A stretch of 64,000 nt of DNA from Polytrichum commune (taxonomy: Eukaryota; Streptophyta; Polytrichopsida; Polytrichales; Polytrichaceae), in the NCBI GenBank assembly GCA_950295325.1, contig OX485805.1, positions 22,865,501 through 22,929,500 on the forward strand, given 5' to 3'. The position numbers and the translations under genes were made by a program. Within the stretch, counting starts at the first letter, position 1, and every line of letters begins with the position of its first letter. Under the pieces are notes generated by a model that was not told where the DNA came from, did no database searches, and worked only from the letters and a program-made list of their open reading frames with translations. Positions 24,495 to 63,855 of the stretch are shown piece after piece.

Positions 24495-24605
24495 CGTAAC
24501 ATTATTCAGATCCATAACAATGTTACGTGGGACTGACGTTATTCCATAGAATATTTCCAACATTCAGTCCCACATAACATTATTATGGATATGAATAATG
24601 TTATG
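24495..24605. mobile_element. Small hairpin element, CATAACATTATT family (copy 1)
   Basis: The two halves are inverted copies: ATAACATTATTCAGATCC / GGATATGAATAATGTTAT and GTGGGACTGA / TCAGTCCCAC. The whole 111 bp would fold into one stem. A cleaner copy is at 63752-63855. Target duplication is not clear, so the superfamily is unknown. A smaller hairpin (ATTCACTTGATT...AATCAAATGAAT) follows at about 24672-24710. Confidence 0.8.
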
Positions 24606-31078: not shown

Positions 31079-31310
31079 TACCAGGGCCACACCGGTAGGC
31101 CCAGCCATAAACACCAGCCCTACGTATTCTCCGGGAATACATGGCTGTGATTTCAAATGGTTGGAGCTACTGGTTGCAGGCTACCCGCCTTCTTCCAGCC
31201 ACTCCAGTAGCTCCAACCATCTGAAATCCTAGCCCTGTATTCCCGGAGAATACGTAGGGCTGGTGTTTCTGTCTATTGGAGCTGCTGGGGTTTTTGATGT
31301 GGCCTTGGTA
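31079..31310. mobile_element. Hairpin MITE with near-perfect ~65-bp arms
   Basis: Ends TACCAGGGCCACA and, in reverse complement, TACCAAGGCCACA, with TAA at 31076-31078 and 31311-31313. (TA duplications with ends starting CCA fit equally.) Inner arms 31109-31173 and 31203-31268 are reverse complements with about four mismatches, including AAACACCAGCCCTACGTATT and CTCCGGGAATACA. CpG is well kept, so the insertion looks young. One transcript would form a long stem of the kind processed by Dicer-like enzymes. Confidence 0.9.
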
Positions 31311-37800: not shown

Positions 37801-39341
37801 TAGCCTAATCATGAAGATCAAAGCACCATCTACCTCGTCATATATGAATGGGTGACAACCAATTTGTATAAACCTATGGCCAGAGACCAAAATCGTCGAC
37901 TGTGTCATGATTTGAGTGACACCCTTTGCATTTGGAGGCTTAACCATCAAACTTGGAGGAGAAATCATACCAAATTTTATTTTTTTGGTAGAATGATATT
38001 GTAAATGTTAGACTTTAAGTGGGCACTTCTTAACCTATGGATGTCAAATAATTAGGAAAATTTGGAGAAATGGGTAAATTACCTACTCAATCAATTTTGC
38101 CTTGCCACCTTCTTGACATGCTCTTTGTTGGAATTGACGGAGGCGGCAATTAGAGTTCCACCCAAACTAGGTGTTGGTATTATATTGCACAATGATGATA
38201 GGATGACATCGATCACTATAGAGTTTTCCTTGTACACGACTAGATGGCAGCTACTATGTCTACAAGCATGAATGGAGGCACCTAGTAATTAATGTTGAGA
38301 TAACATGAAATTTGCGCAAGCCATGAACAAAGCTATAGTGAAATCCATGTGGCTTGAAACACCTTGAAACTATGAGAGATACCAACATATAGATGCATTA
38401 GCATCAAGGACAAATGAATTAAACGTTATTATAGTCCTACATCTTTAATATTACACTTTTCGGAAACGAGAAAACTGTCGTATTATCTAGGTGTGTCATA
38501 TTCAATAATATGACAAATTGGAACTCTTTGTCATAATACAAAGTACATCATCAAAAGACACATAAGATATTTTGCCACATAAAATAATTCTTTCAAATGT
38601 CTTTACAAATATGCAAATTTCATTCATGAAATCTATGCAGTCGTGAAGAAGACAATAATAGTCCACTAATGTTGCCACTTCAAAATTAGCAACATATATC
38701 TTGTTGAGCTTCTCTAATATAACATGTACTTTCATTGTGAATGCAATGGTAAACTATGATGGGTTGTCCATAATCAATGCAACTAACAATTAAGCATGAT
38801 GTTGAACATATGATAGTTTCAGAGTAGGTGGAGGCCTCTCATCAACATCTAAAGAGTTTAATGGCATTGCATTAAGGTCAAAACTAGGTGGCTTTATTCT
38901 TTATCCCAAGGCCATATCAACCATATCCAACCTACAAGATTTAATGAGTCTCTTGATTAGGTCTTGAATAGAGAACCTAGTTCCCTTGTTTTTCTTCGTT
39001 TTTAACCCCATTTTACATTAAATTTTATTTTACCCACATTTCATGTGTGAAAGTTACATAGAATTTAACCAACTATGTACTTATACTTGTGTGGGATCCT
39101 CCATATATGCATTTATTACCTCTATACAATGACATTTTGGGGGTCCACAAGTGTCGTATTAATAACATCACAATCATATCATAGAGTTAGATTTTTACTA
39201 GAAAGCTTTGTTTGCAAAATTTGTGTCATTATATCAAGGTTGTTGTATTATCAAGTGTCATATCGAAGAGGTAGGACTATATGGCCTTAATTGGGATTTG
39301 CAATGATTCATAAGTTTTCTCTCTACCACCTCTCTGTGGCA
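34896..39341. other. Long intergenic stretch, nothing firmly recognised
   Basis: AT-rich, CpG-poor. The longest frames overlap on both strands at 36036-36474 (142 codons minus, 99 plus) without any domain I know. A short frame at 38062-38271 starts MEKWVNYLLNQFC and is also unknown. No element ends or tandem arrays were found by eye. Confidence 0.5.
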
Positions 39342-39834
39342 CTACATGCATGCCGATGTGATAGCATAGTAAATTTCCAAGGCCTTCACATCCATCTCAA
39401 ACTCTGCACATTTCTTTTTGAAAACTAAATTCGATTTGGGCTTTGAACGGAGAAACATTATGATGTAAAACCTCAAGTCTATGTAGCAGATCCTACCATT
39501 GATGGTGGTTGCATGTAACCACTTCGACATTGGAATACATTGAAGAGGAAAACCCTAAAGTATCAAATGTATCAAGGTTTAGAAGCAATTTTGTCAAATA
39601 TGTCTCAAGAGGACAACACAATGACAACTCGTTGAAACCCCACCGATTTTTTTTCAATACGAAATCATAGGAGGCCACAAATGTCCTTATATTAGAGTTA
39701 TCCATTAATTCAACCGGAGTTTTGGTAGGGAGTTGGTTGTTTGGCATGCATAACTTTCCATGTTTGGTAAGTTTTTCGTGCATGCTTGGAGTCAATGTTG
39801 AGGTTTGAACGAAGGACATTCCATATTGGTTCAT
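39342..39834 (-). pseudogene. Frameshifted gene fragment of unknown family
   Basis: Two minus-strand frames join across an overlap near 39493-39530: MNQYGMSFVQ…SSMYSN (39834 to 39493), then MSKWLHATTINGRICYIDLR…VFKKKCAEFEMDVKALEI (39530 to 39342). The text is balanced in composition, charged and long for AT-rich DNA, which suggests real ancestry as protein. One frameshift separates the halves. The first 45 residues are encoded by the left arm of the palindrome at 39699-40026. I recognise no domain. Confidence 0.4.
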
Positions 39835-40026
39835 TGGGTATCAAACTCATTTTGGCATCTCTTGGCATGCCAAAATGAGTTTGATACCCAATGAACCAAT
39901 ATGGAATGTCCTTCGTTCAAACCTCCACATTGACTCCAAACATGCACCCAAAACTTACCAAACATGGAAAGTTATGCATGCCAAACAACCAACTCCCTAC
40001 TAAAACTCCAGTTGAATTAATGGATA
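39699..40026. repeat. Large palindrome: two 160-bp arms, 8-bp spacer, ~96% identity
   Basis: Left arm 39699-39858 and right arm 39867-40026 are reverse complements of equal length with six mismatches and no indel. The arms encode the same peptide start on opposite strands (MNQYGMSFVQTSTLTP…PNNQLPTKTPVELMD), reading outward: minus strand from 39834 and plus strand from 39891. This is an inverted duplication of a coding fragment. A transcript through it would fold into one long stem. Confidence 0.95.
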
Positions 40027-40067
40027 TTTCTATTGTCTCCAACATATTTCTTTCTAGGGAAAAATAA
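39891..40067 (+). pseudogene. Mirror copy of the coding fragment in the right palindrome arm
   Basis: A 58-codon plus frame repeats the first ~44 residues of the minus-strand frame (with NMHPK for SMHEK), then leaves the arm at DISIVSNIF and stops at 40067. It is the duplicate end of the same unknown protein and unlikely to be functional by itself. The frame has stayed open since the duplication, which may just reflect its youth. Confidence 0.5.
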
Positions 40068-40689
40068 ATTCAAGGGGCCATCATCAATGAGATATGCAAA
40101 ATCAAATTGAAACATAATTTTAGTATTCTTTTGCTTGTGGTTGTTCCAAGGAGGGATGATATATGAAGACGATGAAACATTAGGCTTATGAAGACCTTCT
40201 AGCAAATATGCACTAAAAATATCAAATCCTTGAAAGGTACAAGCCACTAAAGAAACCCAATTTCACATATTGCCTAAACAATGAAGACATGTTATCTTTG
40301 TGCCAAAAGTGAAAATAGGATGATTATGGAAATTTTCAATTTGTTAATTTTTATGAGAAATATTGTTCAAATGGTAGAGAAACATATTAAAGTCACTATA
40401 AAGCAACCTTGGGCATTTGATAATTACTCAAAAAAAAGAATATTATATCTTGATACCGAGACTACAAATCTTACATTTTTGGGCATTCCAAAGATCATTA
40501 TTGATGTTATGTATTTTCTTTTTATCAAGATGTTTCCAACTGATCTAAACAATGAACAACCAACATTTCTTGGTGTTTCCCAAAAAACATGTAAGGATGA
40601 TATTTTGTTGTCCTGGATCCCAAACAATACATATCAAGATGTTGGACTTTTATACTCTCAAATAACAAACAAATCACTAATTTGATCAA
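40068..40689. other. Intergenic DNA with an anonymous 134-codon frame
   Basis: A plus frame at 40281-40685 (MKTCYLCAKSENRMI…) is rich in Ile, Asn, Phe and Lys as AT-rich DNA would give, and overlaps two minus frames. No domain is recognised, so it is not called as a gene. Confidence 0.4.
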
Positions 40690-41590
40690 GTTTCCCCCAA
40701 ATGACCCCAACACCGCTTCCCATGGGTGTAGAATAAATCACAAAAAAATGACTAATTTGTGCCTTGAATTCAAAGTACTAGCGTTTGAGATTTTGCCATT
40801 TTTTCTCACAAATATTTTTTACTTAGATTTGGTCCAATGGGCTCCAAACAACCCTAGTAGCAATTCTAAGCGTTGTAGAGTAAACGGCAAAAAATGACCA
40901 ATATGTGTCTTGGATCTGAAACACTAAATTTTAATCATTTTCCATTTCTACTTGCAAAAAAATGACCAATTTGTATGTCAAATCACAAACACTAAAATTC
41001 AATATTTTTCCTTTTTTTTTCTCAAAAAAATATTTGAATTAGATGTGGTCAAATGGGCTTCAAGTGATCCCAACATCATTTCTCACATGGTCTAGAATTA
41101 ATCGCAAAAAATGACCAATTTGTGTCTCCGATTCAAGTAACTAAAATTTAAATTTTTTCGGGTTCTTCTCACAAAAAATATTTGAACTAAATTCGGTTCA
41201 AAGGGCTCCAAATGACCCCAACAATGCCTCTTAAGGGTCTAGAATAAATTGCCAAGAATGAAAAAAATTGTATGTCGGATTACAAACACTAATATTAAAA
41301 AAAATAAAAATTCTTCATCCAATAAACATTTGAATTAGATTAGGTCAAGTGGGCTTCAAATGACCCCAACAACACTTCTAAGGGGTCTGGAATGAATCCC
41401 AAAAAATGACCAATTTGTGTCTTGGATCCAAGACACTAAATATCAAGATTTTTCCATTTCTTCTCACAAAAAGCATTTGAAGTAGATTTGGTCAAGTTGT
41501 TTTCCCCAAGGTTTAGAATTAGTTGTGAAAAATGACCAATTTGTGTCTTAGATCCAAGACCCTAAATTTCAATATTTTGGAAATCTATTT
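40690..41590. repeat. Degenerate tandem repeat, ~147-bp unit, about six copies
   Basis: AATGACCAATTTGTGTC-like words recur at 40749, 40895, 40973, 41112, 41259, 41407 and 41533; the common spacing is 139-148 bp (one unit is internally deleted, 78 bp). Each unit runs TTTTTCTCACAAAAA, TTTGAATTAGAT, GGTCAAATGGGCTTCAA, TGACCCCAACA, GGGTCTAGAAT, then the word above and ACACTAAA. Divergence is high, so this is an old array. Confidence 0.85.
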
Positions 41591-42585
41591 TAAGAAATAA
41601 ATTTGGAGTTTAATAAGGTTTTTATTCTCTTAAAAATCAAGAAAAAAAAAGTGAATTCAGTATTTCGATGCCAAAATACTAAATTGGTTTTTATTTTATT
41701 TTTTTCCCTTCTCTTGAGGATATGTTGAATTTAATGTGGGCAAGTGGTGTCCAAAATGATCCTTGTAACACTCACTAAGGTTGTAGGAAAGGTCTTCCAA
41801 CATGATTCTTGTGACTCGATGTTGAGTAAGTTTTTGTTTTTGGTTAGTTGGTTTTGTTTTCTTCTTCTTTTTCTTTTTTTCTTTTTTCACGTGCAATGAT
41901 GGCTAAATTGGTGTGACATGGGGAGTCAACCCTACCCCCACTATTTGATGGTTTATGCTGGGGGAGCCTTCACCCTAACCACACCATTTGAGTCATGCAT
42001 GCACACTCCAAGCACACATGTGAGGGCTTCTCTAAATATGCATTATGTCCATATTACTTACATATAAGCTCATGGATTAATTATACTATTTTTGCTACTA
42101 GAAGATGGTTTCTCGTGTGTCTCCAAATGTTTATGTAGTGTAAGATTCAACCTCTAGATAGGACCATGTATATTGAGCAAGAAATGTACTTTATAGATGG
42201 AGATGTGTCTTAAATAATTGTGATGCAAACAAATAATAATGAGGATGCTTTTATTTAGAAATTGTTGTCCTTGTTCATTTAGAGTTATAGGTCTTTCTAA
42301 ATCCAAGATGCAAGCTTCTAGTATCATTTTAACATTGAGTTTGACATGTCCATGGTTCAAATTCCAAGTGTCATCATTATTAATTTGGATTTTTCTTTTT
42401 CTTTTTCTTTTATGCAAGACATGACCGTAGACGTGCATAAATGCCAACATGCAACCTTGCATAATTGGTCCACAAGAAGAGGCTCCAACAATCCAGGAGA
42501 CAAATATCTTGTCTTTACGAAGGCACATTGGATGATTTGATCCAAGCCTTCATGCAAATTGTGAATTATAAGTCATGGTTGGAAG
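41591..42585. other. Intergenic DNA with CT/T-rich tracts
   Basis: TTCTTTTT tracts at about 41858-41887 and (TTTTTC)n at 42390-42412. A 124-codon minus frame (42154-42528) crosses the second tract and has no recognisable domain. Confidence 0.45.
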
Positions 42586-43789: not shown

Positions 43790-45170
43790 TATAGTTTTCA
43801 ACAAAATTGTACAAACCACCCAAAGAGACACACATATTCACAGACAACCTTAATAGCATATACCTAATCAACAACCACATCCAATACCCAACATCCCAAT
43901 ACCACCACCCAGATAGACTACTCATTGCAACCATTATACATCAAATATACTGGACCCCACATATGATCTATTTACACAAAGTGAGAGCACACACATGCAT
44001 TAAAGGCAATGAAATAGCGGATAAGCTAGCCAACGAGGGGACACTAAAAGAAAAACCAAACAATACACCACATATACACATAGCCCACCCTTCCTCATAC
44101 TGGCTAGCAAGCTGCCCAACAGCCACACATGATGGCGCCATTTGCAACCTCCGCACATTCATAACAAAAACCGTGAAACTTAATTAGCCAAAAGAAAACT
44201 CACATATGTAAACAAATGGTTAGCAAATAAACAAATCAACCAAAAACTCTTTAACTACTTTGGAAGAACGATCACGTGCCAGATACGCAAATCACCCAAA
44301 CTCTAAAATTTAGATACGCCCAATACATGGGTAATCGTAGAAAAAAATATATTTTGGCCCCTCAAATACCAAAACCCCAATTATACACTATGTCATAACA
44401 ACGATAGAGACTCATGGCCCCACTTACTATAAACATGTGAACAACCATATTTTTTCATTACAGGACTTCAAAACTACGAATTACAATGCACAACAAAGCA
44501 ATCCACTTCATTACTCAAACACTACAAGCCAATAAACACACTAGGTTCTTCACCTTGACAAATGCAGGTAATCTAAACAACCAACCCCCTAACCAAACAG
44601 TCCCATAATGGCTCTTTACATGCACATGCCCACAACAAATATGCCAATGCCAAGCCAAACTAAGACCAGACATACTGTGCATTATTGGAGCCCCCAACGA
44701 AACACAAACACCTATAACACCGTCCCCCAAATACACAGTCCAATTCATTGAATTCACATACTCTCATGATAGATTCCCAGAATAAGCCCTCACACACAAA
44801 CAAACCCCCTTATCACCATCACTGATGGAGTAAGAGGTGCTATACACGAGCACTCTATTGATCAATTAAACAAACTGAAAATTACAAAAGCCAACGTTAA
44901 AACCCTCAAGACAAGTATACACCAAAATGCCATCAAATACCTCACATACCTCGTCCTAAATAAGAGAAAATTAGATAAAAGACAACTCCATGTCCCCCCA
45001 CCCTAATGGAAAGGACTAACATGTAAAAACACTAGAGCCCACCTCCCAAAGGAGGCATAACACCCTATGTTGCATCACGCGACACCGCGATCAGTAAAGG
45101 GCTAACGCGCTCATATTCATGCCGGTATAACAGGACTGGCGTTATTTTTTCTTTTCATCATAACATTTCA
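43790..45170 (+). pseudogene. LINE remnant: RNase H domain to 3' end, degraded
   Basis: The frame 43807-44187 carries a ribonuclease H fold: FTDNLNSIYLIN (the second catalytic Asp region), then IYLHKVRAHTCIKGNEIADKLANEG, whose HKVRAHTxxxGNExAD is the classical RNase H C-terminal signature. After 44187 stops and frame shifts set in, but text continues: YTLCHNNDRDSWPHLL (Cys/His knuckle), NTLGSSP, VQFIEF near 44739, GVRGAIHEHSIDQLNKLK near 44838, NAIKYLTYLVLNKRKLDK near 44929, and GITPYVASRDTAISKGL near 45056. It ends with CCGGTATAACAGGACTGGCG and a T-rich tail near 45150. The 5' end is truncated just after the SWIM-like fragment. Same family as 24765-25640. Dead copy. Confidence 0.85.
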
Positions 45171-63751: not shown

Positions 63752-63855
63752 CATAACATTATTAAGATCCATAACATTGCTCTATGGGACTGACAATATT
63801 TTGCATAATATTGTCAGTCCCACAAAACAATGTTATGGATCTTAATAATGTTATG
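63752..63855. mobile_element. Small hairpin element, CATAACATTATT family (copy 2, near-perfect)
   Basis: The two ~50-bp arms are reverse complements with only a few mismatches: CATAACATTATTAAGATCC / GGATCTTAATAATGTTATG and GGGACTGACAATATT / AATATTGTCAGTCCC. Same family as 24495-24605, but fresher. No target duplication can be assigned with confidence. Confidence 0.88.

Follow-up and report, generated by a model that had tools for sequence, protein, structure and literature searches.

Introduction

By what route did a palindrome with a core of 328 nt come to stand in this part of the Polytrichum commune genome, and is it a small-RNA gene in its infancy, a mobile element, or a rearrangement of local sequence? 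The sequence-only reading had seen in it an inverted duplication of a protein-coding piece and a candidate young MIR or siRNA locus. The question is taken up here for the window, by which is meant the whole stretch of 64,000 nt that was analysed.

Results

Geometry of the Palindrome

The palindrome stands as it was first described: two arms of equal length, 160 nt each, which differ by six mismatches and no indel and are separated by an 8-nt spacer. Its parts are as follows.

39699–39858, plus strand: left arm, 160-nt core; weaker similarity from 39693
39859–39866, no strand: spacer, 8 nt; the innermost 5 nt of the flanking arms are GGCAT and ATGCC
39867–40026, minus strand: right arm, an inverted copy of the left, 160-nt core; weaker similarity to 40032

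The core arms mismatch at left-arm positions 39715, 39724, 39776, 39777, 39785, and 39799, that is, at six of 160 positions, or about 3.8%. A repeat finder stretches the arms to 39693–39858 and 39867–40032 (166 nt, 95%), and the 6-nt extension adds two mismatches, at 39697 and 39698. Outside the palindrome the similarity of the arms stops abruptly. None was found past the arms when the left flank (406 nt) was compared with the inverted right flank, where the gapped score was 22 and the threshold, the 95th percentile of 300 shuffles, was 25.

In an ungapped scan of all 64 kb, which reached up to 400 nt from each centre and listed scores of at least 24, the palindrome is the strongest of seven hairpins, scoring 136 against 49 for the next. 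Folding, which the sequence-only reading had proposed as a check, gave −279.3 kcal/mol for the RNA of 39680–40045 (z −32.8); none of 100 shuffles of this segment, with a mean of −83.4 and an sd of 6.0, is as stable. The palindrome is far beyond chance. Its CpG observed/expected ratio, 0.31 compared with a window median of 0.41, is inside the usual range.

Because chimeric reads can produce short palindromes with small spacers, an artefact of assembly or amplification that mirrored one arm has to be weighed. Such an origin is scarcely credible for this locus: the arms differ at six of 160 positions, whereas a fresh mirror copy would be identical to its template or nearly so.

The mismatches are scattered over the core, where a search for clustering turned up nothing unusual. 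The longest run that is free of mismatches, 59 nt, adjoins the spacer. Clean runs of at least 59 nt arise in 41% of 20,000 random placements of six mismatches; since runs this long are common by chance, there is no sign here of a protected block of miRNA size.

Repeats in the Surrounding Window

The window contains many tandem and dispersed repeats, and CpG is depleted over its length (0.47). To the right of the palindrome, 40680–41620 is a diverged tandem array with units of about 148 nt. About 410 nt to the left of the palindrome, the segment 38430–39281 consists of some 850 nt between 29-nt inverted repeats (86%), and within it lies an inner inverted pair, 38533–38562 and 39222–39251 (70%); to judge from this layout, the segment may be what is left, in decayed form, of a transposon with terminal inverted repeats. 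An open frame at 43795–44184, one of ten frames searched out of 33 with at least 100 codons, matches the Pfam family RNase_H (PF00075, E 3.5e-6, 27.7 bits, cut-off 25.8) and is probably a retroelement remnant. The RNase H stretch, the CpG depletion, and the many repeats are in keeping with a eukaryotic genome.

Other hairpins are also present. The one at 31109–31268 has 65-nt arms that are 94% complementary and a 30-nt spacer, and no Rfam family scores at cut-off for it. Two foldbacks lie at 24497–24603 (40-nt arms, 27-nt spacer) and at 63752–63855 (arms of 49–52 nt with 0–6 nt between them). These two are alike, at 81% over 59 nt, and probably represent a MITE-like family. The presence of other foldbacks in the window indicates that this genome includes hairpin elements.

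It is possible, though on the whole doubtful, that the palindrome is itself an element of this type. In this main rival reading it would be a foldback MITE, a non-autonomous DNA transposon that is nearly all inverted repeat and is moved by a transposase made elsewhere. The equal arms, the short spacer, and the abrupt ends fit such an element, as does the occurrence of other foldbacks in the window, including the related pair at 24497–24603 and 63752–63855. Excerpts of PMC3237417 and PMC3086885 report hairpin loci in plants that derive from transposable elements and MITEs, and stress these as sources of plant small-RNA hairpins; the foldback MITEs and TE-derived hairpins described there resemble the palindrome in being almost all inverted repeat and in their repeat-rich setting. 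Unlike foldback MITEs, the palindrome has neither a second copy in the window nor a convincing target-site duplication.

Both of these differences have to be read with some care. No second copy was found in the window, where blastn of 39300–40100 at E up to 1 otherwise gave only matches of 14 to 24 nt, with E 0.042 or worse. From one copy per 64 kb little can be said about how many the genome contains. By simple arithmetic, a family with a thousand members per gigabase would place an average of 0.06 copies in such a window, so that a single copy is weak evidence against a MITE. At the ends of the palindrome there is no target-site duplication beyond 4-nt matches: three direct matches, each of 4 nt, are located at the ends or beyond them, and seven others, 4 to 6 nt long, fall within the arms and stem from the arms' own ATTAATT. 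The TA found at both ends of the core is its own reverse complement and proves nothing; since the palindrome ends in TA, a TA duplication would be indistinguishable from the palindrome itself.

Coding Potential of the Arms

Two stop-free frames bear on the proposal that the palindrome was made from coding sequence.

39496–39840, minus strand: putative coding frame, free of stops over 115 codons, starting in the left arm and running leftward out of the arm
39342–39554, minus strand: putative coding frame, free of stops over 70 codons, taken in the sequence-only reading as the continuation of the gene fragment; its frame differs from that of 39496–39840

That proposal holds in part. An inverted duplication is supported; its origin from a protein-coding piece is not, whether judged by Pfam, by PDB, or by the periodicity of 39496–39840. 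Searched against Pfam at E up to 1, the 115-codon frame gave no match, and its best match when the 115-aa translation was compared with PDB by sequence, at E 1.2, is taken as chance. Its three-base periodicity, 0.62, is below the median for 345-nt pieces of the window, which is 0.90. The frame is without coding signal. Frames of at least 115 codons are present in 17 of 300 random sequences with the composition of 38401–40680. Three of the six core mismatches fall at the third codon position of this frame, and six are too few to tell anything.

A MITE had been dismissed on the ground that the two arms share an encoded peptide start. The same is true of every palindrome with an open frame in it, because the symmetry of the palindrome opens a matching frame on the opposite strand. 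An open frame shared in this way does not speak against a transposon origin. The leftward continuation proposed for the gene fragment, 39342–39554, sits in another frame and gave no match in the Pfam search at E up to 1; its period-3 value, 1.55, lies between the 75th and 90th percentiles of 345-nt pieces.

The window has 18 open frames of at least 115 codons, compared with an average of 6.7 and a maximum of 14 in 30 simulations, and this excess of long frames makes decayed coding sequence in the region possible. Eight peptides of the region, taken from 59 frames (six whole frames, one cut, and one with X at stops), were searched against Pfam at E up to 1, and seven of the eight gave no match of any kind. 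On the plus strand, 40278–40682 is an open frame of 135 codons with a periodicity of 3.4 (95th percentile 2.35, 99th 3.64), whose Pfam and PDB matches are at chance level only. Chalcone isomerase, considered for this frame, falls below cut-off (E 0.16, 11.8 bits, cut-off 27) and is taken as a chance match. A parent gene for the arms was not found by blastn inside the 64-kb window.

Comparison with Known RNAs

Nowhere in the window does an Rfam family attain its gathering score, and a tRNA search of the window returned 0 genes. A 32-nt stretch of the right arm, sought as an exact pattern, had 0 matches in viral contigs, a collection that is not expected to contain a eukaryotic host. By Rfam the palindrome belongs to no described miRNA family, and such membership is not required of a young MIRNA gene.

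A relaxed Rfam search of the palindrome gave 13 sub-threshold matches, 12 of them to miRNA families, with a best score of 67.5 bits against a cut-off of 140. Two other palindromes of the window served as controls. For 31109–31268 there were six sub-threshold matches, all six to miRNA families (best 20.3 bits), and for 63752–63855 there were 20, including 18 to miRNA families (best 47.4 bits). The matches of the palindrome to miRNA families were set aside, as both controls give matches of the same kind, albeit with lower scores. Since Rfam scores rise with hairpin quality, we read them as marking a hairpin and not a family, the controls being imperfect in that they are shorter than the palindrome. 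As a counterpoint, the sub-threshold scores of the palindrome exceed those of both controls, but its stem is also much longer.

As modelled, the sequence can fold in such a way that a miRNA and its miRNA* would lie on opposite arms of the stem. According to an excerpt of PMC7284492, one prediction program restricts the distance from miRNA to miRNA* to 16 to 300 nt; the hairpin could satisfy this limit near the spacer, which decides nothing. Excerpts of PMC1790633 state that new inverted duplications may at first yield heterogeneous, siRNA-like populations, on the assumption of a functional promoter nearby, and that the activity of DCL1 is limited on perfectly paired dsRNA. By analogy, if the palindrome is transcribed, the nearly perfect stem, some 160 bp long, would more likely yield mixed siRNAs than a single precise miRNA.

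These comparisons bear on the reading in which the inverted duplication of a coding fragment has given rise to a young MIR or hairpin-siRNA gene that regulates the parent gene. That plant microRNA genes can be born in this way is indeed accepted, as the sequence-only reading had stated: part of PMC1790633 presents evidence for 16 Arabidopsis MIRNA loci. The stability of the hairpin (−279.3 kcal/mol) is very high, as would suit such a gene, and the Arabidopsis MIR161 and MIR163 foldback loci described in the same source resemble the palindrome in having two long, similar, inverted arms that are capable of forming a hairpin. They differ from it in that their small RNAs have been sequenced and their parent genes can be recognised. 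The reading is made unlikely by the failure to find a parent gene inside the window, by a 115-codon frame that has neither a Pfam match nor codon periodicity and whose PDB match is at chance level, and by the absence of any Rfam family at cut-off, the sub-threshold matches being alike in kind, if not in score, on the two controls. Quite improbable is a newborn hairpin gene whose left arm is still joined to its source and whose siRNAs would target transcripts from that locus or from relatives of it.

Discussion

The reading toward which we lean, with confidence that is close to even, is a local inverted duplication at a single locus, about 160 to 166 nt in length, without assignable family and set in a repeat-rich region. 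Support for a local duplication comes from the near-perfect arms, the 8-nt spacer, the abrupt end of similarity, and the occurrence of one copy in the window. The lack of a target-site duplication beyond 4-nt matches, the missing coding signal in the 115-codon frame, and the scatter of the mismatches count in the same direction.

The likeliest route to a local duplication of this form is fold-back synthesis or template switching. A nascent strand would have folded back, or switched template, at the short inverted repeat GGCAT–8 nt–ATGCC, and would then have copied its own arm; the two arms now differ at about 4% of their positions. The short pair GGCAT/ATGCC could have primed the copying of the arm. 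It also belongs to the arms, and thus may be a product of the event and not its cause. The birth of miRNAs by template switching is reportedly the subject of one paper. Template-switch palindromes, as presented in parts of PMC7954356 and PMC7202029, are like the present palindrome in that an inverted copy lies beside its source and starts at a short inverted repeat; the subjects treated there are short-range switches in the great apes and, in E. coli, quasipalindrome mutations.

Unless a parent gene and small-RNA reads come to light, the palindrome is to be regarded as ordinary. No putative function is assigned to it. Its interest lies in its form, for long, near-perfect hairpins are thought to be the raw material of plant small-RNA genes. 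If the palindrome were found to be transcribed and to have a parent gene, a stage between duplication and miRNA would be open to study.
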